Source of the DNA: Branchiostoma floridae
Lineage: Eukaryota; Chordata; Leptocardii; Amphioxiformes; Branchiostomatidae
Direction: 5' to 3'
DNA length: 64,000 nucleotides
NCBI RefSeq assembly: GCF_000003815.2
Contig: NC_049992.1
Coordinates: 11,360,753-11,424,752 of the forward strand
Part shown: piece after piece, positions 12,274 through 63,721 of the stretch
How positions within the stretch are numbered: the first letter of the stretch is position 1
How the letters are laid out: each line of letters opens with the position of its first letter
Notes under the pieces: model-generated
Databases searched by the model: none
What the model was told of the DNA's origin: nothing
What the model saw: the letters and a program-made list of their open reading frames with translations, nothing else
Made by a program: the position numbers and the translations under genes

Positions 12274-14087
12274 TTAGAATTTGTAGTTAATTGCTTTTCT
12301 CTTTTCTTTATCCTTCTTTCCTTTGGCTTTCTTCTTTGCTGCATTACTCTGTCCTGTAATCAACAGAGAACAAAAAAAAGTTGTAATCATTGCTACATAT
12401 AATTTAATGATGAGTGTTTTCAGTACCTCAGTGTTTCAATACAGTGTTAATCATACATTAGGAAACATTTATTGTAGTATGAAAGGTGAACAAAGTACAT
12501 AATGAAGTTAGCAGTGCGTTGTTAAAATCAGAGTAGCAAATTGCAAGAAGCGAGTTGAAACAGAATTATGGTTAGCAAACATTGAATTGCATCGAAGGCA
12601 CATATATTGCTCGAAAATTGCATATTATAGATACATGGCGTATTGCATATTGGCTCTACGAATCGTATCTACTTTGCTGCTTTGCACCGCTTCATTGCAT
12701 CATTATTTGCATACCGATATCATCAAGTCACCAAGCATGCATAAATGCACCGCACCAAAAATTGCACACCACGAGTTGTAGAATAGTTATTTGCAACCAT
12801 GCATAACATTATGCATAGCTAAAAATTGCATGATGAGTTGCAGACTTATGCATCCAGAAGCCACAAGCCTTGCACTTCCTTCCAAGCTCACCTGACGACG
12901 CTGCTGAGTCACTTGCAGCCCTCAACCGGTCTTTCAATGACACACTCCTTTCGCCATCTGTCACATTTAAAAACAACCTTTTACCCAAGCATGCATGCAC
13001 TCGCTTACAGACCCAAACGGATTGCTCCATTCTTCTCGAAACATTTTTGCAATAGAGTCCAACTGTTTTCTAGCAGACGTCAATTCTGAATCACATATCT
13101 TTTTGGCAACGCAGAGCCTTCGGTCTTCCTCATGAGGACTGGTCCAATTCAGGTTTTGCCCATGTGACCTCATACCAATCGGTCAAAGGTCACTAATCAA
13201 GAGCAGTTTTGGTCAGTTATCCTGATGAAGGTCAAAGGTTTGACATAAGATAAAGGCTGAGTTTCCTCTTATTTATTACCGGTAAAATGTCGCAATCCAT
13301 CCAAGTCTGTATGTGAAAATAGGAAAGGTACATTACCTTCCTTACAAGCAGTACCCATGGTCAATTTGAATCTGGATCTAAACGACATGTTACGCACACT
13401 GTTCGGATCTGCGTAAAAAAAATAAGATAGGATCCACAGCAGGGATCGTCCGGAATGGTTAATTGTTTACAAAACGGTAACCTTCATAGCAGGCTTTCTG
13501 GGCCTTTTTAGGTCCTTTTTTGCTCATAACACACTATTTCTGACCTTTTCTTTTTGCACATGGTCGCTTACACTACGGCCCACAGTACAAGCAACACCGT
13601 ATTAAAAGAAAAGGCCAGCAAAAGTGTATTATGAGACCAAAAAAAACGAAGAAAGGACCAGAGAGCCTGCTATGGAGGCTATCAAAACAATCTGTTTCGT
13701 TTTGCCGTGCACGGTGGGCAAATGCAATACCTAAGTATATTTTTGTGTTGGGTGATTTAGAGCTGCAGTTTGCCAGAGGTGTGCGGTAGACAATTAGGTG
13801 GGGTGAAACTTGAAATAGCAACAATAACTTACAGAAAGTTCATTTTAAGATACAAGATACTAGTACTTTGCAAACAATTGGAATGTCACAACTTGGTTTT
13901 AAATATCATATCTTGAGCTAGTTTTATTGGTATTGTGCGAGCAGTTGTCACCTAATTAAAGATTGACTGTGTTTATCAAAGAAACTCCCACAGAATCATA
14001 TAAAAGGAACTGCTCACTTTCCCCTGCCTCGTCTGCGTTTCTTGGTGACCTTGAGTGGTGGTCTGAATGACTATTCTTGTTCCCCAT
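12274..14087 (-). CDS. MGN-family small basic protein 1 (4 coding exons, 95 aa), unrecognised
   Basis: Not recognised. Exons in order on the - strand are 14018-14087 (exon starts 14127 after a CAG acceptor, 40 nt leader), 13337-13408, 12892-12957 and 12274-12353. All introns are GT-AG and phase 1. Residues 1-23 begin MGNKNSHSDHHSRSP, and Gly2-Asn-Lys-Asn-Ser6 fits the N-myristoylation pattern. The middle exons carry RNMSFRSRFKLTMGTACKE and GERSVSLKDRLRAASDSAAS. The last exon is strikingly Lys-rich (AAKKKAKGKKDKEKRKAINY) and ends with TAA at 12274-12276. There is no signal peptide or membrane segment. The protein is strongly basic, so a membrane-surface or nucleic-acid-contacting role is possible, but this is inference. 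It shares start, intron phase and composition with genes at 20917-22307, 52249-54318 and 60284-63721. The second intron holds a hairpin MITE (13486-13675). Short exons predicted by eye are the main source of doubt. Confidence 0.66.
13486..13675. mobile_element. Foldback MITE in intron 2 of the gene at 12274-14087
   Basis: CATAGCAGGCTTTCTGGGCC at the left pairs with the complement of the right end over about 75 bp (further arm pieces GCTCATAACACAC and GACCTTTTCTTTT). The short spacer has no coding content. Confidence 0.65.
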
Positions 14088-15382
14088 CTTGTTTCAGTTC
14101 GTGTGGTTTCTTCCCCCACTCCAGGGCCTGTAGCAAGAACTAGAAATAAGTATCTGCATCATCAATAACTAATATGTTCGCGCCAAGTTCAGGTGCAATT
14201 TATTAAGGATTGCATTGTAAATAGGTGGTACAATTTCTGGGTAAAAACATTAACGTTGTATGTTGCATATGAGCAAGAAGGTGGTACTGAAGCGGCGACT
14301 AGTAATCTATGACGGTACTGCAGCACTGAACTGATCGGCCTATATCACGACAGACAACAAGATGGCGACCGGAAGGTGTCAAAATTAAAAGTGTTGATGA
14401 GACCAAGTTCAAAATAGATTTTGCCATCAAAAACCTGTAATAACATACATTTCACAGATGGGGAAATATGTGGCTTTGAAATCAGTCCATTCATGTATGT
14501 TAACTACATACCTTTGCCCCAAGTGCAAATTGCATTCATGTTTATAATATTAGGGCAATATTTTCAGACACTCGTCGGGATTTTCTAGCTGTAGATCACT
14601 TCAGAATCGAATTGAACTCGCTTAAGACAAGGCTTTCACCAATAATGCAAACGGAATGTTTGCTATAGATCCATTGTGTTACAGTTAATTTCTTCAAACG
14701 TATTATCACCCATGTATCTTCAATCAACTAAGGTTGTTGATTTATTTTCTTTTTCCTCGACCAAACGATAGATACATTACACCCCACCAACAAATGAAAA
14801 AATAAACATCAATTTACAAGATTTAAATCAATTTAGACAACAAAAAGTACTTGCATAATTGAAGATTGAAGAAAATATTTTCTTAAGACACCCATCATTT
14901 GCTCCAAACAAGCGTTCCCCATGAGTAGGTATTCGCTCTTCATCGCACTATACTGAGTACATATGGAGGCAAACAATATTGTTTTGAAAGATAATACATG
15001 AGCTCTAGCGGAACATACCCTACCAAGTGGATTTCTCGTCTTTTGTGTTAGTTGATGCTCTAGTTGTAAGTTAACTCGTAGTTGCATATGCGTGGAAATA
15101 ACAAGAGTCAGGGGACCCGTGACTGTTGACGAGACTATGTAACGGACAAAGGCAATGTCAGGTGTCAGCCTCTATAGCTATCTGTGACTGTAACTACCAG
15201 AAACAGGGAAGCTGTGTGGTGTCTACAAGACTAGCTACGCTGATTAGAGAGAGAACATTTGCCAGAGGAGTTTGTCCACCACAGGGTTTCATTTGCCCGC
15301 ACATTTCCGAGCTAGGGATGGGGGCGTGCGATATTTTTCCAGTGGACTCCTGGCCAATTACTTATCCTGTTACCTCGATGAA

Positions 15383-15506
15383 GGTTAGACATCCAGGTAA
15401 TAAGATACACCAAAAAGCAGTTACTCAGACAGGTACAAGACAATGGATGTTGTCTGAAACATCTGACCGTTTCCAAAATCATATCCAGTCGCTTTTTGGC
15501 GTATAT
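15383..15506. repeat. Dispersed repeat with GTTAGACATCCAGG, copy 1
   Basis: GGTTAGACATCCAGGTAATA, AAAAAGCAGTTACTC and GAAACATCTGACCGTTTCCA recur at 56995-57182. It creates chance open frames on both strands. The family is not recognised with certainty. Confidence 0.55.
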
Positions 15507-16383
15507 ACAATGTTTGTGCCGAATTCTACTATTCATTGGAAAGCCTGGTGGAGCCCATGGATTACACTATATTTCATACTCTTTGATTTAGTATCATAAT
15601 GATTAAAGTAGTCGCAATGCACTCCACAAATGCATACAGAATGTGTACAGAATGCCAAAGATATTTGGAGAAAATTTATATCGTTACATCCCAAGGGTAC
15701 AATACAAGATGTACAACAACTCGTAATGCTGTCTGATAGCCAGAATTATCGACAGAGACCACTGAACGACCTGACGGAATCAAGGTCACATTACTCTTGG
15801 TCACTTTTCTAGATTAAACCTACCGGGAGGCTATGTATAGAGTATGGCACAAATGTTGTTTTTGTACATTGTAATAGATATGCAGCCATGACTGGAAATA
15901 TTGTATTGTTGTAGTTTTCTTTCTTCGTTTTGTTTTGTTAACTTTTGATTTATTTTGGTTGTCAGCAATGTAGGGAAAATTAGAACTATGCATACTTTTG
16001 TTTTCTTTGTCATAGCATTTTTCAATCGTTAAGTTTGCAAATATTGTCAATAGTGTTCTTGTAGTGCATGCACGATATGCATGTACAGTGAAATGTCTGT
16101 ATAGACGGTCCCCAATAGATACAGCCCTACCGTTTACCCTGCTTATTCTTTCCATTGTTAACAGATTGACACTAACCATTTGAAACATTTAGCATTCAAC
16201 AATTCTGGAAAGACAAGTCTTTAAAATACCCGTCAATAGTAGTCTGGTCTTAGAGGGACAATAGAGGGTCTACTTGGCCGATTATCTCATCTGGCAAATT
16301 ATTCAACTTAATTTGGCTAATTTGCACTGTTCCAACGAAAGATCATATAAGTCCCAAATTAAGATTTAGGAGATACCTGCTTA

Positions 16384-16396
16384 AGGTCAAAGGTCA
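16384..16396 (+). promoter_or_regulatory. Perfect DR1 nuclear-receptor site
   Basis: AGGTCA A AGGTCA is an exact direct repeat with one-base spacing, the site type used by HNF4, RXR heterodimers and COUP-TF. A CACGTG E-box follows at about 16402. A near-match (CGGTCAAAGGTCA) lies at 13180-13192. Use is inference; both lie near the gene at 12274-14087. Confidence 0.3.
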
Positions 16397-17049
16397 TTCT
16401 GCACGTGACGTAAGAGTCAATGCAAAACCAAAGGACATTGTATGGGTCCTTGGCTTATTGGCAAAAGTCGGTGATTTGACGAACAATTCATGACGACACG
16501 ATTAAGTAACTCTTAATCGATATACGAGGATCCTATTGTCGTTTATAGACATTTATCCTGTAATATCTGAACGGATATGTAGTCCGTGTTGGGGACAGTT
16601 GCTTTACTCCCGGGACAAATTACGCATTTTTCTTTGAAAGGTAGTGACAGGATCAGACCCTCTAAAGCAACACCGGCCTAAGAACAGAAACCGCCTTAAG
16701 CTAAGCTTCTGTTTATCTTCATGCGCTATCTCTTCTAATTGTCTGACAGAAATGCCTGTTACCTCCCCCCCCCCCTCCCCACACAGGTGCGTTGGCATAA
16801 GGACGAACATTTGTTGTAGCATTACATACCTCATGCTGTGTCATCGACTTTAAGCACAGAGTCAATGTGTTATTTCACTGGAGGAAGGGAGGTCATTCTT
16901 CTACGTGACGAAAAAAAAAGGAACAAGGCTATGTCTGCACTGAAAGAATCCTTCAGACAAATATCGTGTGTATGTTTACCAGTGGCAGCTAACACCACAC
17001 TACGGTATAGACAACAAGCGGGATTACTATATGACATGAAAACGCTCAC

Positions 17050-17163
17050 CTCCTGTAGCTCGAAACTTTGCTGGGTTCTACCTGTTCGAGTCAGACGTAC
17101 AAGACGACATTCCTACGTTCTGCAGACAGGTGTTATGACGGCTGTTCACACCGCGCTGTGTGT
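17050..17163 (-). other. Possible spliced non-coding exon upstream of the gene at 12274-14087
   Basis: On the - strand a pyrimidine-rich acceptor (CACCCCATTGCAG) and a strong donor (GGAG, then gtgagc) bound 114 nt in which all three frames contain stops. It lies about 2.9 kb upstream of the MGN exon at 14127, which needs an upstream exon. The link between them is inference. Confidence 0.25.
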
Positions 17164-19596
17164 CTGCAATGGGGTGAAACGGTAACCAGCACGACAACTC
17201 GTCCTGACGCGGACTGGAAGCTAGTCTTTCAACTTCACTGACTTCAGTTCGTGGTCTGGTAGCTCAAAATGGGAAGGCTCTTTTGGGGGAATTAACCTAC
17301 ACCTGATATCTTCGTTAATGGCGCGATTGAAGGTTGGTATATACATAACTTACACACATTCAAAGGAAGCTATTTTTCGTACACAGTCCGAGTATTGTAG
17401 CTGATTAAGGTACGGTCTGATTGTGTCATACCCAAATTGGTAGAAAAGAAACTGATTGGAACACTGCCCAAGGGACGGTACATAATACAATGTACCCACT
17501 TTCACTATTCGACTTTAATTCGAAACAAAGAGGGGGGAAGTGTCTTTTAGGTACAAAATTGCCACTCCAAAGAGATCAAAACACTAGAAATTTTTCACAC
17601 TTTAAATATCCCACATTTCATAGGACGGAGTCTCTATTAAAGATGGCTTAGAATGTGGACATCTGAAACAACGTTGTTGAGGATTGCATAATTACAGTGC
17701 GTGTTCTGCTATATATCGGCATCGCGATTGCTTGCTATCAGCATGACGACATGGTCACAGACACTTCTAAGCAGGTATTCTGTACCTACTATATCCTTAG
17801 ATAGGGGTAATCACCAGAATACATGGGGGACATCTATTGACACTTCACAGGTTTTCTACGCATAAACCGCGCAGAGGCACGTATACCACTAGACCATACA
17901 ATTCTCTTTTATGTGGATATACTTAGGAACTCCCACGCATATACGCTCGCACACACACGCGCACAAGCACGCACTGTGTTTTGTCCGTTTAATCTATGTT
18001 TTAATATACATCTCAGCGAACGTGTAAACCTATTCTACTTACCGTATTGAATTTATCATGGATTGATCGAGCTGCAACAATATGGAAAGCACAATCCGTT
18101 CTCGCAATGTCGCACCGTACGATATGTACGGGCGGGCACTTATGTGATTACAGTTCCCTGTGCGTCTTTAGGGATCGTTTGGTATGTTCTATATTATACC
18201 AACACGTAGATACATACAACTAGGGCAAATCTATGAAATGAAATCTATAAGCGAGACTATTTGTCAAAACTTATTGTTTGGTGCAGATTTAGTCAATTAA
18301 CCGGGGAGGGAAATACTGACAAGGTAAACATCATCATCATCAAAATCATCAAAATGGTTTATTTTTAAAACAAGATACTGGCAGCCAGGAACTGAATTTT
18401 GTCTTGTTGTACATTAAAATCTATGCTCATTTTAACATACATATCGCTTAAAACATGTCGCTTAAAAGTATTCACCTCTATTGATAACACGAGGCTATAC
18501 ATAGACGAGACAATTTTGATAAACGGTGTGGTCTCGTATTCAATCCTATTATATGTTTCAAACTCGCTGACATTTTATCACTGAGTTCGTCACCTAATGT
18601 AAGAATTTAGCGAACACTCCTAGGAAAGTACGCCCTTAACATCGACATTTACCGAGTATGCGGTATCCCCCATACAGACCCCCTATTTGTTTAAAATCTC
18701 AGATGTAGACAATGTTGTTGACAAAACAGAGAATTTGAAAACGCCCCTTCTCTCTTACAAGAGGAGCTATTGAAATTCGTCCTATATGGATGACGTCAAG
18801 TGAAAAGACTGGATTGTTGACGTAATGAAGGTGTGCTATTTACCGTCAGATTAGGTGTGAAATGTACATTTATGGATAGAACTCATAAAACCATAGCTCA
18901 AGTGCATGAACATACGATAAAGTATTTCAAACATTTCTATTTTTTTTTCGACAGACGAGGAAAATGTGGCACTCAAGTTAGTAACGTATATATTTTACAC
19001 AGTACAGACAGAAGACCTCCTGACAAAAGGCAGGTCATTTCAAACATTGCGTACTTATTTCCTAGGTTAAAATGTCTACTAAGATATCACGTATTTGGAC
19101 TAGACCTCCAATAAGGTTGCAATGCAATCGACTGATGATAACCACAAGTACAGAAGAAGAGATACCTCTGAATACGTCACGCTTTCAATAGAAATGTGAG
19201 CGTGACGTGATTCTGGTTCATAGGATTTGTTTGGTTTATATGATTCTGCATGACTCCAAGAATGTATTCATACATACCTCTTCCCCGAGACACAATATTT
19301 TCCTTTCCCTCGCCTAGAATAGTGAAAGCGTCCTATTGTTGTTTGAGACAGGAGGTTCACCGTAGCTACACCTACCTGGCAGTGTGTAATGGATACAGCG
19401 TACCAGCGTGGGTCAGTGATACACAGTGGGTAGGTGTGTTCGTGTGTAAACATCCGTGCGATTTGATACATCCGAATGTCTGTCAGTGTATCCATAGGTC
19501 ACCAAAGGCCAACCTGAGTTGGACTAGTCTATATGAAAACTGACGGGTGGTGATAAGAATTCTGAGAAAAAGAGACGAAGGGAGGTCAATCTTCGG

Positions 19597-19810
19597 TACT
19601 CTCCAAGCAGAGGTTAGGCTCCGGCTGTTTTTTAACGTTTTTTTTAAGTCATTTTTATCGGGCTTTCTATTTTGTCATTTTTCTTGAGGTACGCCAGCCA
19701 AAAGTTAGGTTTTGGCACAGCAAGATGAAATAGAAAATAGAAAGCCCGATAAAAACGACTAAAAAAAAACGTTAAAAAACAGTCGGAGCCTAACCTCTGC
19801 TTGGAGAGTA
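19597..19810. mobile_element. MITE with CTCCAAGCAGAGGTTAGGCT ends and 9-bp target duplication
   Basis: Ends TACTCTCCAAGCAGAGGTTA and its complement at the right, with long arms (TTTTTATCGGGCTTTCTATT pairs with its complement at about 19736-19755). The direct repeat AATCTTCGG flanks it (19588-19596 and 19811-19819). It shares the first dozen end bases with the elements at 8722 and 9499 but not their interior. Confidence 0.8.
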
Positions 19811-19895
19811 AATCTTCGGATGGATACAGATGGTGCATAGTAAATCAGCTCTTTGCTTTACCTGCCTGTTTCCACCCTATCGTGTATTTTGTTCC

Positions 19896-20110
19896 TACAT
19901 TCTTCCATTAACTCCCGTTCTAATAAAGTCCCCAGCCACGTTTGTTCTTTTGTCGTTTTCCCCCTCTACACTCTTCCCTTCACTCAATCCCATTATAATA
20001 AAGTCTCCAGCCACGTTCCTTCTTTTGTATGTCGTTTTACCCTTATACACTATTTCCATCACTCCATCCCGTTCTAATTAAGTCTCCAGCTATGTTTCTT
20101 CTTTTGTACG
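19896..20110 (+). repeat. Tandem repeat, three units of about 75-79 bp
   Basis: TAATAAAGTC (or TAATTAAGTC) recurs at 19921, 19996 and 20075, each followed by CCAGCCACGTT-like and TTCTTTTGT-like segments and ACTCCATCCC-like spacers. Pyrimidine-rich. Long chance open frames cross it. Confidence 0.65.
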
Positions 20111-20530
20111 TCGTCCTCACTACTCTATAGACCTGAATAATAGTTAGATGTATGCCATGCTCCATAACAAACGTGTGAAGCGACGTTTGCATTCGGCCTC
20201 GAACATTGAGTCACATAATGTCACGTCACACCTCACACCCTGCCATGCCCAGTACGTTTAAACAAAGATACTTGGTCAAGTTCACACGACCGTGGGGAAG
20301 TCGTGTTCAACGCCTTGGAAAGAAAAACAACGCCGTTACGTACGGGTAGCTCTGAGGTATTTTCAATAACCTGTGTACTTAAAGGGCTTTGTGTACTTTT
20401 TAATTTAGAACTTTCAGCACGTAGTGACTGCACTCGACATAAATGAGAAAACAACATGCATCGCTGAACTGTTGCATCATTGGAATTTGTATGTAGTAGT
20501 GCCATGGATTCTATTGCTTGGAGATATTTT

Positions 20531-20536
20531 TTTATT
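20531..20536 (-). terminator. Poly(A) signal AATAAA for the gene at 20917-22307
   Basis: AATAAA on the - strand lies 381 nt beyond the stop codon. Confidence 0.45.
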
Positions 20537-20916
20537 TGTGAGTTTTAGTAAAACTCTTTTGTCTAAAAGATAAGACTCTGAGATCAAGGCGTCTTTGGAA
20601 CGGTTGTTGATTGAAATAGGCAACAATTGAGTGGTGTATATACATTTGGTGGTTAGGGTAAGATCGATCGTTGTCTTAAAAAATAGAGCGATTATATATC
20701 AACATGTTCTTGTCCTTTTTGAACTATGAAATTCGGAATGTTTCTCTGCTAACAAATTCTCAAAATCTGACTTAATTGCACTGATTTTGTTACGCATCAT
20801 GCATTAGAAAAAGTTACAATGCCCATAGCATTGCTAAATGTTCAAACTTGTTAACGTTAATAACTTAGATATGATATGCATTGACCTATGTACAAAAGTT
20901 CTATTTGAGTCAACTA

Positions 20917-22307
20917 CTAAAGTAAAGACTCCGTGGACGGAGTGGTCGCTGTGTTTTCAAGCGCCCTCTTGCGGAGGCCGAGTCTGAAGCTGTCGTTTCT
21001 GTCAACAACCCGGACCGAACCTGTGGAGATAGGTTTGTACTCATTATCGACTGCACACATGACACAATACCTCTGTGTCCTAATGTTTAAAGCGAAACAG
21101 TAGACAAATTTACCATGAACGACCTAAAGTAAGACGAACACAAATCCGTTTTTTTAACTGAAGGAAGTAGACAAACATGTTTAACACACAGATTCTGGAA
21201 ATTGGAACTACGACCAGAACTACATGTAGAAGAGAAATTGTGAAGTTATTTATTACCTTTTACGTCAGAATCATCATCAGGGCGACGAAAGACTCGTCTG
21301 CTTTTGACGTCACCGAAACGTGTGGGCTCCTTTGCTGACGTCACAAGGTCATTGATGCCCTTCAAATCTGCATATAAAGTGGAGATCACAAATGCTTAAA
21401 CTTATACACACTAACATGTGCGTCAGAAGAAAGAGAAGATATTGGAACTCTTTGTGAATGTTTATGTACACAATGGCAACGTGGGCACTGACGCAATGCT
21501 CTACCTGTCGGCTTACCCACTTCAATGAGACTATTTATCAGTCCAAATAGCCCTCCGGCGATTTTGGCACATTGACAATTCTGCGTGTGTCTGTTACACC
21601 TTGGTACAGTATGAAATGAAGTGACAGTACATTTGTTTGTACAATCAGGTTCTGATGGTGGAAATCTATACTGTGTTGGGATATGTTCACGTGTTTTGCA
21701 CCCACCTCTAAATCATCATCGATATTTGTTTGATTTAGCAGCTGAGCCAAGCATGTCCAAAAAGTTTAAAGACGTGTACGTAAACAACAGTATAGCATGA
21801 TTAATTGTTGTGTAAACAATGATGTCTGTCTCACCTTCCATACTGTTGCACCGTCGACTGCCATTCAGAGTGAATTTCTCAGCCGTGTCGATCCTATGTC
21901 TGAAGGACGTCCGGAGACGGTTCTCTCTACACCGCAGTCGGCACTTACTACGTTCTGTTTTGGGGGGAAGGGGGGGTAAGTGTTATACAGGAGTGTAACA
22001 ACACTAGCAAACTTTGCCAACTGGATCATATGGTCTAAGTGAAAATATTGTCATTAATATTGGATAATTTCATAGGGAAGGAAGAAATTAAAGGAAGCAT
22101 AAAAGAGATCATGAAAACGGAAAGAAGGGAAACGAACCGAGATCACCAATGCAGAAGAGGAATAAGAAAATAGGGAAATGTCATATGACATGAGTTCAGT
22201 TCCGTTTTATCTTGCAAAATTATTTAAGTATATAGAGTTTTAAATATATAAACGCTATACCTACCTTCTGACATATGCGTGCTGTGGTGGGCCTGGGAGT
22301 TTCCCAT
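20917..22307 (-). CDS. MGN-family small basic protein 2 (4 coding exons, 125 aa), unrecognised
   Basis: Not recognised. Exons in order on the - strand are 22265-22307, 21835-21954, 21257-21367 and 20917-21020, all with GT-AG borders and phase-1 introns; the second follows a clear polypyrimidine tract. The start MGNSQAHHSTHMSE fits the N-myristoylation pattern (Gly2, Ala6). Exon 2 is very Arg-rich (RSKCRLRCRENRLRTSFRHR). Exon 3 carries LKGINDLVTSAKEP and RRVFRRPDDDSDV. The last exon has DRNDSFRLGLRKRALENT and ends SLL, TAG at 20917-20919. No signal peptide or membrane helix is seen. Several basic-then-Ser/Thr sites could be kinase targets. A candidate AATAAA on the - strand at 20531-20536 gives a 3' UTR of about 380 nt. 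The gene is divergent from the sialyltransferase at 24993 with about 2.7 kb between starts. Its first coding exon has the same length (43 nt) as that of the gene at 60284, supporting common descent. Confidence 0.68.
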
Positions 22308-39089: not shown

Positions 39090-39152
<63 letters not shown>

Positions 39153-44095: not shown

Positions 44096-44117
44096 ATTCA
44101 AAAGTACAAGGGAATTA

Positions 44118-48023: not shown

Positions 48024-48036
48024 GGGGGGGGGGGGG
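48024..48036 (+). repeat. Homopolymer of 13 G
   Basis: Runs of G or C also occur at 16765-16775 (11 C) and 31938-31950 (13 C followed by 8 A). These are places where base counts in the assembly are least reliable. Confidence 0.8.
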
Positions 48037-51018: not shown

Positions 51019-51096
51019 TGCTGCCGCGCCGCGTGCCTGCGAAGCTGGTGTGTTACGCCGAACGGCGGTTATACCGGCTATATAGATACAGATACA
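51019..51096 (+). repeat. Dispersed 75-bp GC-rich repeat, copy 2
   Basis: Same sequence as 26921-26996 with about two differences, followed by GATACAGATACAGAT. A short tandem tail of this sort is typical of non-LTR retroelement or SINE 3' ends. No tRNA-like promoter boxes were found in either strand. Confidence 0.6.
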
Positions 51097-51840
51097 GATG
51101 TTTTTGTGCACCATCTCAACTTTACATATGAAATAGAATATAAACATTATATAATCACGAAATACGACGTTACCAGACCGCGTACCGTGAAGTAAGGACA
51201 CCATTCACTCCGTGCATCCATTACCTTCATGAACACCCCATAATATAGCAGCATGTCCACAACCCTAATGGTGCTCCAGGATTTCCATACGTTTCCAATA
51301 TCTTTTCATCACCCACAAGGGTATGATATCAGTGTCTATCATACTCCCAAGACGGATATCTGTACCTGCTAACGTAAAAACTTCACCTCATCAATTTTCT
51401 AGTAACATTTCTTACCAGATTGAATACGTAGGTAACATGTTGAAGTCTTAAATTCATCGGTACATTTTTAACCAGGGGCAGCGTAGCCAGATTACATCCC
51501 GCTTTGACGGCAGGATAAGTCATATACTCTGAACCACGTCGAGATTGATTTATGTCTTCAGAATTCTGTTTTGTAAGTGGTGCTATACATTACTGTGCTG
51601 TATGTCTTAGGGATATATTGAGACGGTTTGATAAATGGTTAGGGCCCGAGCTGGAAGGTACTGTTGTCCGTACACAGGATTATGGTGTTGTGGGTATCTT
51701 TAACCGTGTGACGTAAATGGGGTGCATTACTTAGCACGAGTTTTCAAACTCAAGGAATATTTCACAACAAACCAATTTATAGATTTCTATAATATTTTTG
51801 TAAACGATGCTTAGTATATAGTGCAGATCGTCTACCACCG

Positions 51841-52000
51841 TAGCCTGGGTACCATCCGGAAAGTTTTTCGCTCCGGCGTTCATTATATACTATAAACAGT
51901 CGCTTCTAGCTCTTACATTCATTGTACACTATAGTATATACAGTCGCTTCTTCAGAAGCGAACATAGGAGCGAACTACTATCCGTATGGTACCCAGGCTA
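51841..52000. mobile_element. 160-bp MITE with TAGCCTGGGTACCAT ends and 9-bp target duplication
   Basis: TAGCCTGGGTACCAT at the left pairs with ATGGTACCCAGGCTA at the right; inner arms include GAAGCG and CGCTTC. The direct repeat CTACCACCG lies at 51832-51840 and 52001-52009. Inserted about 240 bp upstream of the MGN-gene exon at 52240. Confidence 0.8.
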
Positions 52001-52248
52001 CTACCACCGAGCATTTCTGAAGCTTTAACGTACCATACATTAATAATATGCGAGTACCCAAGGGATGATGTCACGTTTGGTGCCACAATGCCACCATGCG
52101 GTAAGGAGTAGGTCATTACGCCTTGATGAAGACAAGTTAGTAATACGCAAACGTTAGCTAAAGTTAAACGTTTGTTAAAGAATACTTATTTTAGTAACAT
52201 ATTCTAAATTAACAATGTTCTCTATATTCTTGAATCCAGGTCTCTGAG

Positions 52249-54318
52249 ATGGGGAATCTGCAGAGCCAGGTCGGCAAACGTCATGGAGATTCGAGTAAGT
52301 CTTACTGAAAAGTTTCTTACACTTTTCCACACATCAAGACTGACCTGGAACCTAGCCTGATTTGCGTGGTCCTTTATGCTATATACAGAATTAGAAAGAT
52401 AGTCGTTAAAGTCGGTAATTTGGCGTATCAGATAAATTTTTAGTTATAGTAACTGGAGGAGAACATCATTCTAACATTTCGTTGATGTCCTTTTCTGTTA
52501 TTGATTGTTTATCTAAAAATATGTGGCCTCACACATGGTCATTTTATATCCAACGGGAGCTAGTAATGTCCACCAGCGGCACATTGGTACGATTACCATT
52601 GCATTTTATGGCGATGTAATGGTTGCTAAATGGGCTGTAGACATCATGATATTGCCCAGCGTATTCCAAGGCACCTCTACTAGTCTACTCAGAAGTCTCC
52701 ATAGACAGAACATTTACACTAGAAGTGATGCTATGGTAGAGGACTTTATTTCAAGGCCAAAGTAAACATTGTTATTTGGCCAAATCAGAATGGAAATTGC
52801 TTTCATTGGATATTTCTAGTTTTAGAATTTTATTGTGAATGTACTTGTTTACTTTCAGTTTTGTTTCTTTTATACGACATTGCTGTATTCTAATTTCAGG
52901 GCCCGACAACAATTCAAAGTTTGACGAAATTTTGAGCAGATTTTCGCATGATGACAGAAACAACCATCGCACGACCAGTTGAGTCCGACGTGTCCATGAG
53001 TTTCTTTTATTTTCTTTCATTTCGTTTCATTTAATTTTATTCATTTTCTTTCACATTCATTTGTTATCTTTTTACTTTCTTCACCTTTTAGAAGTTTTGT
53101 AGGTCCTTGAGGACCAAAAAGTTCATAAAATAAAAAGGAAAGCTATCCATCTTCCTACCCTGCATACCGGAACCCCCCCCCCCTCCCCCGTAATATCTTA
53201 GGGTATTAACACCATCTCCCTTTTCCAGGGCCCAGAAACGGACGGGCCAGAAGTTCCGGATCTCTCCAGTTCGGGATGTCTAGATCAGAGGAGGACGTTC
53301 GCGAGAAGACTAAAGAAAAGAGTCATAGTAAGTTTTTAACTTGTACTAAATACATCCGTCATTTTGAAATGAATGACTTTTCCTAACTTCAATGCTCAAA
53401 CATGGCATAAATTTAATCCCAACCAAAATTCGACTGATGACGACTTGTAATTAACCCTCCTCTTAACATCCCAAAACCACACATTATCGAAAAGGTGGCA
53501 TCTTTCGTCTTCTACTGTCTCAGAAAAAGAAGTCAAACTCAATAGCAATAAGTTTTTTGCTTTGTTTAGTGTATTTGAATTTATCACTAGAGTTAGTCGC
53601 TTACTATTAATTTACTGTTTACCACTGTTTGTCTGTCACTTTTTGTCACTTGCAATTAGCCCTCGGGCAAGAACTTGCAATAAACTATCTTATCAATTCT
53701 TGTCATAATTATTTCCAGGCTTCTCCGGCTTGAAGGACAGTCTGAGACGGTCCTTCCGGGTGCCGTCTAGAGACGAGCAGGAGAGAAGACCGAAGGGGAA
53801 GCCCAAGGACAGGACGCAAGTGGTCATGGGAAGCTGGGCAGGAGGAGAGGATGCTGGGAGAAAGAAGCGGAGTAACTCCCGGGATTCGGGTGGAGGTCAC
53901 AGGCAGGCTGGCAGAACTTGCAGTAAGTGTCGTGTGTTCAAAAATTTGTTCAAGATATTTGTAAGGAGTTTAAAGCTTTCCATCCAGCATATTGTAAGCT
54001 TGACCTCCACATGACAGCTCTTTAAAAATTCTAATATGTAATTGTTCTTGTTGAGATATCATACACGTAAGAGACTCATGCATGCGTAATTGTGTTGTTG
54101 TCTCACGTTCAGTTTTACAAACCATTTCCTTGCCATAGATTAATAGTGAATTTCTGTAAGGTTCCGGGAGCAACCGAAGCGGTTCGGGTCGGCAGTCGGG
54201 TGGTTCCGTGAGACGTACGGCCAGCACCGGGAGTTCTCGGAGAGGTTCGGCGGGGTCCAGAAGATCCAGTGGGAAGAGAAGGGATGATAGCAAATCTTTC
54301 ATCTCATACTTTTCTTAG
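52249..54318 (+). CDS. MGN-family basic Ser/Arg/Gly-rich protein 3 (5 coding exons, 194 aa), unrecognised
   Basis: Not recognised. Coding exons are 52249-52294 (exon starts 52240), 52900-52977, 53229-53327, 53719-53922 and 54161-54318; every intron is phase 1. The start MGNLQSQVGKRHGDS fits the N-myristoylation pattern (Gly2, Ser6). Exons 2 and 3 both begin with the split codon Arg then Pro (RPDNNSKF; RPRNGRARSSGS), which suggests exon duplication. Exon 4 has LKDSLRRSFRVPSRDEQERR and then VVMGSWAGGEDAGRKKRSNS; this last piece resembles ILGSFKAGEDTGRKGKDG in the gene at 60284. The last exon is almost only Ser, Gly and Arg (SVRRTASTGSSRRGSAGSRR) and ends SYFS, TAG. RRTAS, RRGS and RRSF are good basophilic-kinase sites. 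The donor after exon 2 (GTTGAG) and the acceptor before exon 5 (TTTCTGTAAG) are weak. The CAG acceptor at 52238-52239 shows that a non-coding exon lies upstream, perhaps the one at 44118-44543. Confidence 0.7.
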
Positions 54319-55691
54319 ACACAACATTGTGTGGAGGACCGGGATGAGCCAGTTAATCTATTTGTATTTAGGTTAACAAGAAAAAAGCAACAAGACAACA
54401 CTTTCAAGACGTCAACGTACAAAAGAACATACATGATAGGAAGAGATGAGGCCAGAGGCTAGAGCTTTAAATGATCGTTCATATTACCTATTTCTTCATT
54501 ATGATAATTGCTTTGATAGCATGTAATGTGTTGGACACAATATCTATGCAGACGTTTGATATTGTATCTAAAGAGTACACCTTTTGCACCAAATGAACAA
54601 TAATTTCCTTTCTACAATATGGCGCACATTGTGTCAAATGACCTACTTCAGCTTTCCATGAACATAAATAGCTTAAACTTGCTTGAGCTTTGACAAAATC
54701 ATAAAATGATTGTACGATTAGAAAAAAATGATTGTGTGATTAGCAAACAGTGAAATGCTTTTCTTTCTTTTGTGAAATTCGACCCCGTTAGCCTGCGGTT
54801 CTAGCAGGACTGTGGAGGAAACATTGCTCATCCGATACGTGTAAAAGACGAGGAAGGTTAATCTTAAATGACATTATATATATAAGCGATACATTCTAGA
54901 TGTGCAATATCTAACTTGACGTACTTGATGTTGACTTTGTAACAACTTGTTATACTTTGTAACAACATGCGTTAAGGGAAAAAAAGAAGCGTTAATTGTA
55001 TTCCGTGGGACCAAACCAGTGTCAGTGCCAGCCATGTGTAAGCCTTACAAAGCTTCAACGTAGTTTGATGTATGTATACATTGATAGATACATTTTAGGG
55101 AATATGTCATTGCCTACCAATGGATTGAAAGAGATTGTTGAGTTTTGGATCATGGATGGAGAGATGTCTGGCCAAATTTTCAAATTATAAAACACAGTGA
55201 AAAGATCTACATTTTGTATGTAAGCACATTAAAATATTGGAGAGTCAATTTTCCTGGCAATTCCAATTTGACACCTTAACTACCGCCGCATTGTACGTGG
55301 TTCGGTTTATACCAGCCTTACAAATGTAGTAGTTTCACATCTACATGGAAAGCAATAGAAAAGTTTTTGAATAGAATTACCCAGTCCATTTTCTTTTCCG
55401 TCAAAAGCAACAACTTCTTTCAAAAATGTTACACTATAAGCGGACTTAGGATAGGATCTATGATCTCCCTCTTCTCTGTCAAAAATAACAGATTTTTTTT
55501 CAATCTGTAAATTTCCTTTGGGAATTGGATTAGTGTGATGATAAATCGGTATTCGTAAAGAAGATCCCGGATGGTCTAGACGAGATATCGCAGGCAATCT
55601 ATACATATTTCCTAAGTGCAAGCGAATGTTGTTGTATCGGATTAGTGTTCGTGCCAGTTGTCTACTTGCTCTTTGTGAACAACAAAGTAGT

Positions 55692-55697
55692 AATAAA
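55692..55697 (+). terminator. Candidate poly(A) signal AATAAA after the gene at 52249
   Basis: First AATAAA noticed after the stop at 54318; another lies at 55921-55926. The resulting 3' UTR of about 1.4-1.6 kb is long, so the true end may be elsewhere. Confidence 0.25.
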
Positions 55698-56994
55698 CAC
55701 TAATTTTCATTTTTCATCTATTAAAGATTTAGATAACGTAGGGGGATTAATGAATAAGTTAAGATGGAGAGGATCGTGTGTTTTTCAAAACGCATTCTTC
55801 AATGTTTAAATGCATTTTTATCTTGTCTACTGAATGACAATTAGGCCTGAATAAGGCTTTTGTATGTACATGTATGTGACTGTAAGATCGTCACGCTATG
55901 TGCCTGTATAGCATTGATCAAATAAATGGGATCAAAAACCATCGAAAATATTATCGTCTTCCTACAAATATTTTCCCGACGTTTGTGTAGTGTTCACACT
56001 ATGATTTTATGTTGCTCTTTTGCCATCAAATGCAGCATATGCATGTTGCATTTTTCCATCGAGGTATTTTACTGTCTATGTACGATGTACAACGTTCCCG
56101 TGTCACAATCCGTCTAACGGCCTTGATAATGTAACATGCCGCAGGGGTAATCTTCGCACAGACCAGTTTTCCCCAGTTACCGCCAGTTTCCACCGTTAAA
56201 ACAGCACATGATCCCAGCCGGGGACTAGGGACACTCCACAGCTCTAGGAATGACAGAGGTGTGATTTCCCTCGCCAAGGACGCCTGCCCCCTACATATAC
56301 TTGTCAATGTCTTGTAGTAACTGGGGAGTTATTATTACATCTTACAGATTTTCCGTCCCATACACCTGAGAGATTTTCATGTTTTGGGAAACGGTTGTCA
56401 TATTTCATTTTTATGCGTGTTACTTTTCTTAAAGCTTCTTGGCCATTTCTCTTCCTCTGAGATGTCTATGCCGAAGGCTATCATTAATGGGCTCAAATAC
56501 AAATAGGAATATCTAAGAAAAACAATGTTAGATTTGCAACGTCATATGCCTGGGAGCACAGAGTAAAGATGCCTAACACAGGAGGAAATAGGTAGTATTA
56601 TTCAGAATATGTTATCCACATAACCGTTCCAGGAACACATTAACATATCTGCTCAATGATCTAAGAAATAAAACTGTCTCGGGTGAAAATATATTACCGT
56701 ACATGTAGCTCTGTAAGACACTGGATCTAATGCTACTTGTTACGAACTGGTCTTTCTATATTTGGATTATCGGAGATCGATTATCGGAGATAACAGATCC
56801 CTACACTAGAAAAAACTGTTATATTCTATGGAATAGAACTAAAGAGGGCAGGATTTTCTTAACTTCTTTCTTCTATTACATTTCCATTTCCAGGTGCAGG
56901 CGTTCTGGCTTTGGTACTCCTTCATTTTTAGGAAATGCCCCTTAAAATGATGGTTGTAAACTTGTCGGTAAAACTATGTATGTCTTACAACAAA

Positions 56995-57182
56995 GGTTAG
57001 ACATCCAGGTGATAAGATACGCCCAAAAGCTGTTACTCGATCGAGCAACTGGACATGATTTTGGAATCAGTCAGACGTTTCAGACAGCATCTACTGTCTT
57101 TCGTCAGTGAAACATCTGACCGTTTCCAAAACCATATCCAGTTGCTTGAGTAACTGCTTCTTGGCGTACATGTACGTATCAC
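56995..57182. repeat. Dispersed repeat with GTTAGACATCCAGG, copy 2, palindromic
   Basis: Left arm (GATACGCCCAAAAGCTGTTA, then GACATGATTTTGGAA, then CAGACGTTTCAGACAG) pairs with the right arm over about 90 bp, so the element folds into one large hairpin. Its sequence matches the copy at 15383-15506. Confidence 0.6.
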
Positions 57183-58633
57183 CCGAAGGTGCCCTCTTAC
57201 TGCAAGAACTGATTACATTTGTGACCCTGTCCTCGAACTCATAAATAGAGAGAAAGCTTAGGATAAGCAAGTAAATTTTTTTAACCACACTCATAGCTTC
57301 CATATTGCTGTTACTTTTACATCTATCCAATAAGTTTCATTTCTACAACTACAGTCCTGGGTACCTCGCAAGTGTCACTAACTTCTACAAGTACAATTAT
57401 TAGGCTACAACACAACATATTCGCTTATTTTGGTACTTAATCGTCATGTTGACCATCCCTGCAGAAGAAAAAAATCTTGTTTTTTTCCTGAAATCAGGCG
57501 AAAATTAATGCGCGCGCTGATGTCATCCATAAAATTTACTTGCTGTGGCCTTACCACACATCACTGACTAATTTAGGCTTGAAATCAAACAAAGAATAAC
57601 CAAAATCCGTGTGGTCAAGGCGTGGAATGAAATGGCAGTAACACGAACCTAATATCGCCGTAGGAACCAAATTACCTCCGCCGCGGCCGTGTGTAATAAG
57701 ATTTACTTTGATCGAAAATTACCATAGAGAGTGTCAAAAACCATCTATGGAGATGCCAAACTTTTACATCCTTTCTTACTATTGGATAAAATCGAATATT
57801 TACGTTCATCCGAAATCCAATCGTCAATGCTTCAATGGCTATAGAACCGCCTGCATGTTAGTGCATCAATGTTATCAGGGTGCTTGTTTGCTATGGAAAG
57901 CAAATCATCGGGCTAGCGTTAGTTGATACTGTTATATGTACATCTAGCGACGATTCGCAGAACTGCAGCGCAGGAATGGTCTGAATTAAGATAATGTTAT
58001 AGAGGGTGTGCTTTTCGCCCTCGTGATAAGCTAACGTTTTGTTTGTTTATTTTTTCTGATCTTGTATCATAGAGACTCTGGGGACGAACAGTCATCATCA
58101 TTAGCCCCATAAAGACTGGGATGAAAATACAAGCCGTAACCGTTGGATTTATACAACGTGTGTCATACCAACTGTAAAAAAGTCACAAAAGTTACATGAC
58201 AACTTAAATAAGATGTAACATATAATCACCCGGTAAGACGTCCGGTATTCCATTCTCCTTGAAGAACAATTGGGAGAAAAAAATGGGTTTAGCCGGGGGC
58301 AACCGATTCAGTAGTCTGCGTTAAAAATAGACATTCCGTTGTAAATATCAGGGCTTTGAGTATTGTGCCATCTTTCATGTACTTTACCTAGACATTGTAG
58401 TGTTAAGGAAATGAAAACTAGCAAGTTGACGTCCAAGCTACATGTGATTTATCGAAAGCTGATAACATCTCAGACTGACCAAAAAAATGACAAATGGGTT
58501 GACGCTATTGCACCCGATCGCCCGAAGGCTTGCTAATCTAACCACTTTGACAACCAGGTGACAGTTATAAAGCCCAACTCTGATAGAACCATAAATACAT
58601 GTAATTATGCGATCACAGGGTGCGTTTGTGGTT

Positions 58634-58690
58634 CCTTTCGGGGCCCGGTTGGGCAGCTTTCGGAAACGAAATGTATTAGTATAAAAGACA
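58634..58690. mobile_element. Fragment of the GGGGCCCGG MITE
   Basis: CGGGGCCCGGTTGGGCAGCT and the following TTCGGAAACGAAA match the left part of the element at 4187-4399; no right end was found. Confidence 0.45.
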
Positions 58691-58944
58691 ACAAAACACA
58701 CAGATTGAGAATGTAGACTAACCAAATAGTCATCCGCACAATTATTGCTTGTTCCTTGATTCGCTTGACTCGTTTCTGCAAACTTCCCACTTTGACTTTC
58801 CCGTTGAAATTTTCATCATAAACTACACTTTTAGTAGTCTTTATCAACCTGGTCTTCGTCCCAAGGGTATTGAATTTCCTAAAGCTTTACGTATGGTCAA
58901 TGGGCGGCGGTGCATGATGGGACTGATTAGCCAGATTTTAGGTC

Positions 58945-59071
58945 ATGAGGGTCACACGCAACAAGTCGCAGTATAGTCAACTATCTGAAGAAAGAAACGA
59001 CGAGAGTTTTCAAGAGGCGATTCCACCACAGCCTGGTACAGACGTCACGCAGGTTGGTTCGGGAACTGTAG
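58945..59071 (+). CDS. Possible alternative first coding exon of the gene at 60284
   Basis: An open stretch starts MRVTRNKSQYSQLSEERNDE and runs 42 codons to a strong phase-1 donor (GTA G, then gtgagtat). A TTTTAG acceptor sits just before it (exon from 58942). Joined to 60732 it stays in frame with the RRARSDV exon and skips the MGN exon, which would give a form without a myristoylation site. Joined to the MGN exon at 60275 it would instead act as an upstream reading frame that overlaps the MGN start and soon stops. Which of these occurs, or whether the exon is used at all, cannot be told from sequence. Confidence 0.35.
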
Positions 59072-59794
59072 GTGAGTATAATGTTAAACGTTGTTGCTGC
59101 TGTGTTGGTTGGTTCCCGTTTTGGTATGAGTAGTCGCTGTTCAAGTCACAGTTGTTGTTGTGTAATTGACGTTGCTACTATTGTTGTTCTTGTTGTAAAC
59201 ATCGCCAATAAACCTATCTTATCCACCTAGTCAACCATATTTAACACTTGACTCACCTCACCTCAGTAATCTAATCATACTAGTCACCGTCCTTAGGTGA
59301 TATAAAGTATCGTGGTTTGAATAAACGTCAGTTAAAAACATGTACTAGTCGCTTCATGTCGCCCGACAATTGGAATGATAATTAGTCTTTCTGAAAACTA
59401 CTGACCCGATTCAGACTTCTAAAGCTGACTTATCTTAACTTCTGAATGGGGGCTTAAAGTTCCATTGTTAGTCAATGAATCTAAACCCACTCATTGGAAA
59501 CATCACCGAAAACCAACGAGATATGTCACACAGAATGATATAGAACCATGCTTGCATACATTTTACGAATACTTGCATAGGTAAAACAGTAGCTTGGTAA
59601 ACATGGAACGGGTCGGTACAAAAGATAACTGATCCCAATGGTAGATAACGCTTACAGAAAATGTGTGAAATAGTGCCCAAGGGGGCTGAAGCTGACCTAT
59701 ATTGGATGTATACCCTAGACACCGCGTACCAACGTTTCAAGGACTGCTGATGCAGAAAATAGTAGTGGATGATAATAATGATTAATTAATGAAT

Positions 59795-59935
59795 GCACAC
59801 ACACACACATGCGCACACACACACACACACGCACACACACGCACACACACGCACACACACACAGACACAGACACACAGACACACAGATACAGACAGACAC
59901 AGACAGACACAGACACAGACACACACACACACACA

Positions 59936-60003
<68 letters not shown>
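59795..60003 (+). repeat. CA/CAGA microsatellite, about 209 bp
   Basis: CA units with CG variants, a central CAGACA block and a pure CA end. It lies about 280 bp upstream of the MGN exon at 60275. Confidence 0.95.
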
Positions 60004-60005
<2 letters not shown>

Positions 60006-60283
60006 AAAAGTTTTCACATTGAAATGTGTGAACAGGTAGTCAACAATTTCCCACTCGTTCTGTGACGGAATTCTAAAATTCCATTATGTATACACGCACC
60101 TTGACCAGAATACAATGTAACACTGCAAAGAATGAGAAAGGAACTGGGGATTTTGCTTACACCACGCTGCGTAAAACACTACTTTTAAGTTAAGTCTGTT
60201 AACGCCTCACACTGCTGATCTACAATGTACCTTAATGTCATGTCGGTGACTGACTAGCCGTTTTATCTGTCCAGAATGTCATT

Positions 60284-63200
60284 ATGGGCAACAACCAAGC
60301 CGGGAAAGTGCAGCGTTCAAGAAACGGTAAGTGTTGGACCATTTTTCTCCAAAGACTCCGTGCTCATATATTGAAATGAAATGAACTTTATTGCACGACA
60401 GTTGTACATAGTCATATGTATCACGATTCAACCTAGCCTGATTAAATCTCACTTATAGCAGCCCAACAAACCTCCGCCGGGGAGGGGCCAGTTACAGGCC
60501 TGGACAGCGGAGTTTGTGTTACACAGACTACATTCAACCGATTCTGTTGGCTGAACATAAATCGAAAAGAAAGAAAAGGTCCCTATTAACGTATTAACCC
60601 AAATTTCTGATACCGGTGTTTTTGCATTATCTTTAAACTTAGTTAGGTTGGCCACACAAAGGTTCCTATGCATTGTCACGACCGTCTTGTGATTGAACAG
60701 TGCCATGATCATGACCTTTGACCATTTTCAGGTCCCCAGGGAAGGAAAAATGGATACCCTGGCCGGTCCAGAATTAGGCGTGCAAGATCGGATGTCGGGA
60801 GCAGGAGAAACTTGAGAGGTACGTCACTTACGGTCAAGGGAACGTTTCAGTAAACAATTTAGTAAACCTTCTTGGTGTTCTAAGTCTCTTTCGTCAGCAA
60901 TATTTGTGGGCCAGGTAAACAAGAAGATAAGGGGTGTATAACATTTAGCGGGGAGGTGCTTAGGTCCGGCCCAACAAATTCCTTAGTCAAAACTTTTTCC
61001 ATGACTTTTCCTTGCAAAGAAATCGTCTTAAGGAACATATGTAACTCCAGAGTGAAAGACATTCCATAGATTAAGTATTTGTTTGTTTGTTTGTTTTGCA
61101 TATCCGATAAACCGAAGCGTAACACACCAGATTTGTACTGAACAGTTCAAGCTGTATATCCGGACAGATTTATTTGATCCAATCACACCGGGAAGAACCC
61201 CTACTCTTGATGGTGGTGATAAATTTGGTTATCATTTCTTTCTACCTGTATCAACATGGATTATTTCTGAAATTTTGAAGTAATTTTCTTTTTTCCTTAT
61301 CTCACAGTTACCAAACTTAGTACCCAACAAACACTTTCCCAGAGAAATCTAAAAAATAAAGATGTCAGCAGACAAATTAAAGTAAGTGCCAAAGCCAGGG
61401 AGATTAAAACATTTTACAATAGTACTGAATACGTTGAAGGCGAAAATGGTGCCACAAAAAAGTACAAACTGCAAAATTCGCCAAATAAAAATGAAGATGG
61501 GATTCAAGACCTGGATTCAAGATCATCTACTTCCGCTGAAACCCCAGTCAATCTGGACAGTCAAGAAGAAGACGAAGACTGCTGGAGACATGGGTCCCGG
61601 AGACCCAGGGAATGTGTTACAGGATACGATGATTTAAAAGGTACGTCGCTGTGGAAAAGGTTGGATAAAAGTTCCAGTTAGTATTTTGATACGTTTGAAA
61701 TTTACAGTCTGTAACACATACGCTACATTTGCAGCCAATGTCGGTTGTTACATAACTACAGAATCATTTTTCTTGTACCCTATTTATTATAGACTATACT
61801 GACATTGCAGCTTGCAATATCCTCCCCCCAGAAACCACGATAGGCACATCCCGGCTTCGCAAATCTTATAAACTGAGACGTTCGAAATCCGATGTGAACG
61901 TCAGCTACAGAGGAAGAGGGAGGGGTAAGTTGACAACATGTTCAGTACTGATCATTTTTCTACGTATGCAGACAGACGAACCACTTTCTCTTCTGAGCTG
62001 AAATTGACATAATCCATGTTTCCATACAGGAGAGTTTTGGGATCCAAATGACGGTCATAGATCTTCACCATACAAGAAACATATACCGTCGGAAAAGAGA
62101 AGTCCATATTTGATGAAGCAGGATTTCCGAGAGCGAATGATTGAAGACGAAATGGACGCTTCACCCAGAAGTCCTGTTAAAGCAAGGAGGAAGAGTGAGT
62201 ACACCTGGTCCAAGGTCGTGCCTCCAAAAATGTCAAATAATCTGTATATTTCTATTCATACAATTCATCCGATATGCTTTTTAAAAAGGTTGCAATGAAA
62301 CAATTTACAGTGACAACTTAACATTCCAATAATACGTACCATTGTATATTTATGGCACTATGGCTGTCAAATTCTTTTCGGCAACTTCATATTTTGGATG
62401 TATGATTGATACTGTCTTCCAGGGCGGCCTGGCGATGGTCAAGTCTCTTCAACCTTAAGACGATCCTTGTCAGACGTAGACGTAAGTTACCGTGGCAACA
62501 GGAAAGGTGATTTTGTTTTTCCTACAGCTTTTGCTTTGTAGATGAAAACAATACCTTTGCGATTCTTGTTACCATTTGCAAGGATTCGTGTCTTTTGTAA
62601 CTAACATAGCTACTTCATTCTGAAATACATATGATATAGCACATGTTAGTATGATGGTGATCCAATTATAACCTACACAGGGCACACCAGCCCCCGACAC
62701 CGCCCTACCAGAAGGCCTATACCGGTGGACAATGATCCCAAGGACGCGATATTCAAAGATGCTGAAGCAGTGGAAACAGACGATCGGCGGAAGCACAATA
62801 GAACACGCGACCACAGAAGAAGATGTAAGTATCTTAATTTCATGATTATTATCAGCCAATATCAATAATGATAAATCTCTACTAGTATCTATGGTGTTGA
62901 AATGAAGTTGATACAAAACTAATATCATTTCAATCACATGCCTGTTCACCTGCAGTTGGTATGCCTTCCAATCTCCGTCGCTCCATGTCTGATGTTGATG
63001 TCAGCTACCACGCCACCAACAGAGGTATCTCACAAAGCTGTTACATATGCCTGCACGCCATCAATGATGCTTAACTCCAGCACTGTTCATGCCAGGTTAA
63101 AACCTTAAAAGTATCAGTACCTATAAGTTTTTCTCGAACTCTTGTCCTACCGGGAATTACAGGTTCTGCACTTCCTTCCGATTGACACAGATTTTCAGTA

Positions 63201-63721
63201 GATACCATTTTGGCCAAGGGTAAAGATCCGTCTGCACGCGGACAAAAAGAAAACCTAATAAAACAGACATCCCGAGAAAAAAGCTAAATAGCACGTCAAA
63301 ACTGACCGCATCCTAACCTTGGCATGCATGGAAAGTAATATAGATAGTCGCCATTTTTACTATGGTAGTCCTGAATAGAAGACATGACTTTTAATATTAT
63401 CTGTACGCACATGCTTCAACCAGATTCAATAGCTTCGCTGAAAAGATCCCATCACATAACCCGGTACTTCATTGTTGTCAGGTGACTATGGCACTTCCTT
63501 TTACGGCTTCATGTCTATAAAATAGCGTCTTTATACTTTATCTTCAGCTTACAATACCAGCCCTACCCGCCATGAACAGTTTCTATACAATGTTCCACCT
63601 GTCGAGTACGCAGAGGATTGCTCTGAGGGAAAGATATCCGATGAAAACCTTGTTATCTTGGGAAGCTTCAAGGCGGGAGAGGACACAGGAAGAAAAGGGA
63701 AAGACGGTCGAACACCAACAG
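60284..63721 (+). CDS. MGN-family multi-exon basic protein 4 with repeated RRSxSDV exons (partial, at least 410 aa), unrecognised
   Basis: Not recognised. Nine coding exons lie in the window: 60284-60326 (exon starts 60275), 60732-60818, 61308-61640, 61793-61924, 62030-62194, 62423-62506, 62681-62824, 62956-63024 and 63548-63721. All are phase 1 at both ends. The next exon may begin at 63997 (TTTCTTTAG acceptor), so the gene runs off the window. MGNNQAGKVQRSRN fits the N-myristoylation pattern. Short exons repeat one motif: RRARSDVGSRR (about residue 30), LRRSKSDVNVSYRGRGR (182), LRRSLSDVDVSYRGNRK (265) and LRRSMSDVDVSYHATNR (336). They alternate with longer, charged, low-complexity exons. 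Residues near 390-410 (ILGSFKAGEDTGRKGKDG) match the gene at 52249. No signal peptide, membrane helix or known domain is seen. Donors at 63722 (GTTAAA) and 62507 (GTGATT) are weak. An alternative first coding exon may exist at 58945-59071. Confidence 0.68.

Follow-up and report, generated by a model that had tools for sequence, protein, structure and literature searches.

Perilipins are amphipathic-helix proteins of lipid surfaces. For MARCKS, an effector domain with clustered basic residues is described in two reports (PMC4602126 and PMC5964646). The proteins analyzed here are similar to MARCKS and MARCKSL1 in having a myristoylatable glycine, predicted disorder, basic serine-containing segments, and possible phospho-control of membrane binding. 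In contrast to MARCKS and MARCKSL1, they have neither a Pfam MARCKS match nor a concentrated basic segment, and they are encoded by up to 16 phase-1 exons with repeated modules of a helix and a GED peptide. As in perilipins, several weak helices could provide membrane avidity, but a Pfam match is absent, each helix heads its own symmetric exon, and a conserved GED peptide mostly comes next. They also resemble lineage-specific tandem orphan families in occupying a single locus, in lacking detectable homologs in Pfam and PDB, and in their fast divergence; however, their phase-1 exon modularity is unusually regular for proteins that seem to lack a signal peptide. A report of this family was not found among the best matches listed in a literature search.

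A preliminary description of the window (the whole 64,000-nucleotide stretch of DNA that was analyzed, positions 11360753-11424752 of contig C14) presented four genes, here g1 to g4, as small MARCKS-like paralogs that begin with Met-Gly-Asn. All coordinates for g1 to g7 are window positions. The four Met-Gly-Asn ATGs sit where they were placed (g1, 14087; g2, 22307; g3, 52249; g4, 60284) and are four of the eight ATGGGNAAY sites in the window, of which two are on the plus strand and six on the minus strand. Our rebuilt models reproduce first coding exons of 70, 43, 46, and 43 nt, have phase 1 at all junctions of g1 to g4, and reach a stop codon in g1, g2, and g3. The outward-pointing orientation of g1 and g2 (minus strand) versus g3 and g4 (plus strand) is correct, and Pfam does detect a GT29 sialyltransferase exon (PF00777, 3.5e-25) in the block between g2 and g3, together with an exon for CRAL-TRIO N (PF03765, 1e-5). 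A local family of MGN-start genes with symmetric phase-1 exons, encoding basic Ser/Arg-rich proteins without a known domain, is genuine. However, the cluster that is supported by sequence comparison is g3 to g7, not g1 to g4, and the earlier reading overlooked the feature that unifies it, which is a repeated exon encoding an amphipathic helix and the peptide GS[WF]x[GA]GEDxGR. The exons of g3 and g4 are as follows.

52249-52294, plus strand: g3 exon 1, MGNLQSQVGKRHGDS (rebuilt model)
52900-52982, plus strand: possible alternative last exon of g3, with a phase-1 acceptor and stop TGA (open and in phase only)
53229-53327, plus strand: g3 exon 2, phase 1-1 (rebuilt model; codon score)
53719-53922, plus strand: g3 exon 3, amphipathic helix SGLKDSLRRS plus GSWAGGEDAGRK module (resembles exons of g4, g5, and g6; helix in a low-confidence model)
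54161-54318, plus strand: g3 last exon, Ser/Arg/Gly-rich, C-terminal KSFISYFS and stop, weak acceptor of 0.10 (rebuilt model; codon score)
60284-60326, plus strand: g4 exon 1, MGNNQAGKVQRSRN (rebuilt model; aligned to g5 exon 1)
60732-60818, plus strand: g4 exon 2, basic, RARSDV (rebuilt model; g5 alignment; exon-pair comparison)
61308-61640, plus strand: g4 exon 3, the longest in g4 (rebuilt model; aligned to g5 exon 3 with only 24 of 90 residues identical)
61793-61924, plus strand: g4 exon 4, LRRSKSDVNVSYRG module (rebuilt model; exon-pair comparison)
62030-62194, plus strand: g4 exon 5 (rebuilt model)
62423-62506, plus strand: g4 exon 6, LRRSLSDVDVSYRG module (rebuilt model; exon-pair comparison)
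62681-62824, plus strand: g4 exon 7, basic (rebuilt model)
62956-63024, plus strand: g4 exon 8, LRRSMSDVDVSYHA module (rebuilt model; exon-pair comparison)
63548-63721, plus strand: g4 exon 9, GSFKAGEDTGRK module, weak donor gttaaa (aligned to g5 exon 8 with 30 of 50 residues identical)
63997-64000, plus strand: start of g4 exon 10, which reaches 64176 beyond the window (continuation model)

The rebuilt g3 model encodes a protein of 168 aa with a pI of 11.7. If the exon at 52900-52982 (plus strand) were used, a short form of 42 residues is conceivable. In g4, the weak donor of exon 9 lies just ahead of an in-frame TAA and can lead in phase into 63997-64176. Six further exons follow exon 10 and end at 67056, past the window, and this continuation is backed by the corresponding exons of g5. 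With a total of 16 exons and 787 aa (pI 9.5), g4 is therefore not one of four small proteins as first described. Farther downstream, g5 (69294-74408, plus strand) has 14 exons, one of them with a GC donor, and encodes 710 aa starting with MGNKQD. Gene-finder models place g6 at about 77069-86454 and g7 at about 89448-102408, both on the strand of g3 and g4; their predicted starts are MSGG and MEKT, respectively, and not MGN.

The borders of g6 and g7 are those of the finder, while those of g3 to g5 were set by hand because the finder fused these genes. Its first settings gave run-on genes. Its second settings joined the sialyltransferase region and g3 to g5 into a single chain from which the final exons of both g3 and g4 were missing and in which several joins between genes, as well as one within g4, were not phase 1. 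The finder is not independent for g1 to g5, since it was trained on their exons. Phase-1 introns make up 3/3 in g3, 15/15 in g4, and 13/13 in g5, all in hand models that were built seeking phase 1, and 15/16 in g6 and 15/15 in g7, for which the finder was allowed all phases.

Comparison of the 75 exons of g1 to g7 gave 89 of 2,775 pairs at a z of 4.5 or more (z was computed solely for pairs scoring 32 or more). All 89 fall inside g3 to g7, both within and between genes, and none includes an exon of g1 or g2. The exons of g3 to g7 are largely symmetric phase-1 modules, many of them duplicated, and the commonest module has a short stretch predicted to form an amphipathic helix, which a linker connects to GS[WF]x[GA]GEDxGR. 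An exon with this motif or a near variant is present in g3, g4, g5, and g6 and absent from g1, g2, and g7, although g7 is linked to g3 to g6 by other shared exons. Other segments recur as well: the N-terminal MGN segment in g3 to g5, basic RSxSD segments in g4 (three RSxSDV plus RARSDV) and g5 (two), and a C-terminal SF[WL]xxL segment in g4, g6, and g7. The claim of four paralogs thus stands in part, in that g3 and g4 are paralogous to each other and to g5 to g7, whereas g1 and g2 have no significant similarity to them.

The g4 and g5 proteins align across most of their length with a z of 55, a score reached by 0/400 shuffles. The coding frame outscores both other frames in 5/5 tested exon pairs, with a small margin in one. 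Ten exon pairs with 447 aligned codons give a pS of 0.75 and a pN of 0.42, and the six best of them, with 281 codons, give 0.69 and 0.37, although pN is lowered somewhat because the pairs were aligned as protein. Alignment is poor in two of the ten pairs, those of exon 3 (27% identity) and exon 7 (22% identity). Judged by these values, g4 and g5 are old duplicates, with synonymous differences near saturation.

Genome searches were made against an assembly of 513.4 Mb in 431 contigs. Protein searches with three queries (g3, residues 1 to 411 of g4, and the tail of g6) found, at E values up to 0.1, matches at the g3-g7 locus alone; for g3 and the g4 segment, there was no off-locus match below an E value of 0.3, and the best outsider was on C7 (E = 0.315). 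A degenerate DNA pattern for the motif has 16 genome matches, 8 of which are within the cluster and all spell GS[WF]x[GA]GED. The 8 matches outside the cluster are about the number expected from the reversed-pattern control, which gave 7. Since no second locus was found in the genome searches, g3 to g7 are, as far as sequence comparison goes, a tandem array of at least five genes known thus far from one genomic locus. Two isolated pattern matches are at C8:21337617-21337640 (minus strand), which spells GSFHGGED, and at C4:19154508-19154531 (minus strand), which spells GCWVGGED.

Searching Pfam with g1 to g7 in pieces gave sub-threshold matches only, and a PDB search with profile A1 found nothing up to an E value of 5. 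A PDB match of g4 (residues 573 to 721, E = 0.034, named Fig4 Sac homology model) was regarded as chance, which leaves no credible match from these Pfam searches or from the PDB searches with profile A1 and g4. The 13 hand-chosen exon heads from g3 to g6 are amphipathic when modeled as helices, with a moment mean z of +1.43 at 100 degrees and -0.19 at 170 degrees; 6 of the 13 are singly below a p of 0.05, and the values are not independent because the heads are paralogous. In an AF2 model of the g3 module, residues 2 to 11 form a helix and the remainder is almost all coil, at a low-confidence mean pLDDT of 63.5. Based on composition and this model, the g3 to g7 proteins are probably largely disordered.

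The reading that we favor, with a probability of roughly 0.35, is that g3 to g7 are a tandem, single-locus family of probably intracellular, largely disordered, possibly membrane-attached multivalent scaffold proteins that are tunable by phosphorylation. Its exon family comes from the sequence, while anchoring, docking, and switching are parts that we infer. The family would have arisen by gene duplication together with duplication of symmetric phase-1 exons bearing short modules. N-myristoylated g3, g4, and perhaps g5 would be located at the inner face of the membrane, held there by myristate, basic residues, and several weak amphipathic helices. Copies of the GED motif may each act as a peptide to which a partner docks, and phosphorylation of the serines in RSxSD and RSFR might loosen membrane contact. 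Lipid anchoring would not be family-wide: the PROSITE-type N-myristoylation pattern fits all four of g1 to g4, as had been noted, but not the fifth MGN gene, g5 (MGNKQD), and the predicted g6 and g7 begin with MSGG and MEKT.

The same composition could instead belong to nuclear or RNA-associated Ser/Arg-rich proteins in which MGN is incidental. The Ser/Arg/Gly-rich tail of g3, the high pI of g3 (11.7) and g4 (9.5), and the Arg/Ser-rich exons that are present in g6 and g7 too are all consistent with this, but no Pfam RNA-binding domain was found and the exon heads are amphipathic, and we consider it unlikely. Phase-1 exons with module heads such as LLDRCKKFFASW are also what might be seen if each exon encoded one amphipathic, antimicrobial-like peptide within a secreted precursor. 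However, by inspection, no MGN start is followed by a hydrophobic signal peptide, and the modules are mostly hydrophilic linker, which makes such precursors very improbable. We give a little less than even odds to a further proposal: that a short amphipathic helix joined by a linker to GS[WF]x[GA]GEDxGR is an undescribed repeat unit, one per symmetric phase-1 exon, in a single-locus intracellular family, where exon duplication would have worked as it does for extracellular domains but on disordered peptides for membrane binding and docking. Should the locus prove to be transcribed and conserved, it would be a clean example of a disordered protein assembled by duplicating symmetric one-motif exons, and GS[WF]x[GA]GEDxGR would be a new motif with a partner yet to be assigned.

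The preliminary description had compared g1 to g4 with MARCKS, as myristoylated paralogs with an electrostatic switch, and the MGN start, phase-1 junctions, and basic composition are indeed common to all four. However, there is no concentrated basic segment in g1 to g5, where the maximum charge of +7 to +9 per 20 residues is equaled or exceeded in 62 to 463 of 500 shuffles. Neither does Pfam MARCKS (including MH2) match g1, g2, g3, the 411 in-window residues of g4, g5, the g6 first exon, or the g6 tail at E values up to 5, or the remainder of g4, g6, and g7 at E values up to 1. A CaM_bdg_C0 match in g4 was sub-threshold (E = 0.42) and was treated as noise. With no Pfam match, and with the basic residues of g1 to g5 unclustered relative to shuffles, we rejected MARCKS membership for g1 to g7, and the electrostatic comparison is an analogy only. 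The models of g1 and g2 are as follows.

14018-14087, minus strand: g1 exon 1, MGNKNSHSDHHSRSPRNADEAGE, phase-1 donor gtgagc (rebuilt model)
13337-13408, minus strand: g1 exon 2, phase 1-1, contains MSFRSRFKL (rebuilt model; codon score equaled by 25% of background segments)
12892-12957, minus strand: g1 exon 3, phase 1-1 (rebuilt model; codon score)
12274-12353, minus strand: g1 last exon, Lys-rich, stop TAA (rebuilt model; codon score)
22265-22307, minus strand: g2 exon 1, MGNSQAHHSTHMSE (rebuilt model)
21835-21954, minus strand: g2 exon 2, phase 1-1, contains TSFRHR, weak acceptor of 0.51 (rebuilt model; codon score equaled by 12% of background segments)
21257-21367, minus strand: g2 exon 3, phase 1-1 (rebuilt model; codon score)
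20917-21020, minus strand: g2 last exon, contains DSFR, stop TAG (rebuilt model; codon score)

The rebuilt products are 95 aa (g1) and 125 aa (g2). They align weakly with each other over about the first 69 residues, a score equaled in 6/400 shuffles. SFR occurs once each in g1 and g3 and twice each in g2 and g4, and the SFR of g1 and g2 recurs in the helices of g3 and g4. The counts for g1 and g2 are matched by 2/20,000 shuffles, but SFR was picked post hoc, after the sequences had been read, and g5 has none. Against common descent of g1 to g4 stand the lack of g1 and g2 exons among the 89 significant pairs and the six protein alignments of g1 and g2 with g3 to g5, which 17 to 332 of 400 shuffles score as high as. 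MARCKS-like paralogy of all four genes is thus improbable. In genome searches, g1 retrieved only its own locus plus two weak hits on C10 (best E = 0.34), and g2 retrieved its own locus only.

The closure of the splice models in one frame had been thought unlikely by chance, yet 511 of 1,528 background phase-1 first exons likewise close a four-exon all-phase-1 chain. The best such chain of g1 is equaled by 31/511 of the background and that of g3 by 5/511, where the g3 chain scored differs from the hand model because the last-exon acceptor scores just 0.10. For g2, no chain was obtained, since its exon-2 acceptor of 0.51 is below the limit of 1.0. When any phase was allowed, background chains equaling g1, g2, and g3 numbered 302, 150, and 24 of 3,536. 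The background in these comparisons may itself include real genes and overlapping alternatives. An earlier null was discarded because its chains ran through the whole array, and in its replacement, the length was fixed at four exons. A paralog family therefore cannot be defined by a shared start context together with open phase-1 chains. Both g1 and g2 could fail to be genes, their likeness arising from MGN and an easily found open phase-1 chain, or could be one gene with two alternative first exons, as g2 exons 1 to 3 are phase-compatible with g1 exons 2 to 4 (22307-12274, minus strand) and the all-phase finder links them through two extra exons. To this we assign a chance approaching, but below, one-half. 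Codon scores trained on g4 to g7 argue against g1 and g2 being non-genes, with Stouffer z values above background (2.9 for g1, 2.7 for g2, and 5.2 for g3) that are biased upwards because the exons were chosen by eye. With the shared SFR and moderate codon scores in their favor, g1 and g2, small look-alikes of the family, are plausible as genes; given their weak alignments to g3 to g5 and the commonness of phase-1 closure, they are judged possible genes with at most a putative kinship to it. They may be short, outlying variations on the theme of g3 to g7 or unrelated open chains.

The first exons of g6 (77069-77774, plus strand) and g7 (89448-90084, plus strand) are predicted to encode a zinc-knuckle-like CxxCGRxxxxH...C and a coiled-coil-like stretch, for which no Pfam match above the cut-off was found. 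A transposon origin for this exon was rejected because a genome search at E values up to 0.01 found just two copies. In g7, five predicted exons of 30 to 32 residues each (96699-98303, plus strand) carry the repeat [SP]xxxGLLGSK...MSQMSEK, and a sixth open match to this repeat is at about 101944 (plus strand), outside the g7 model.
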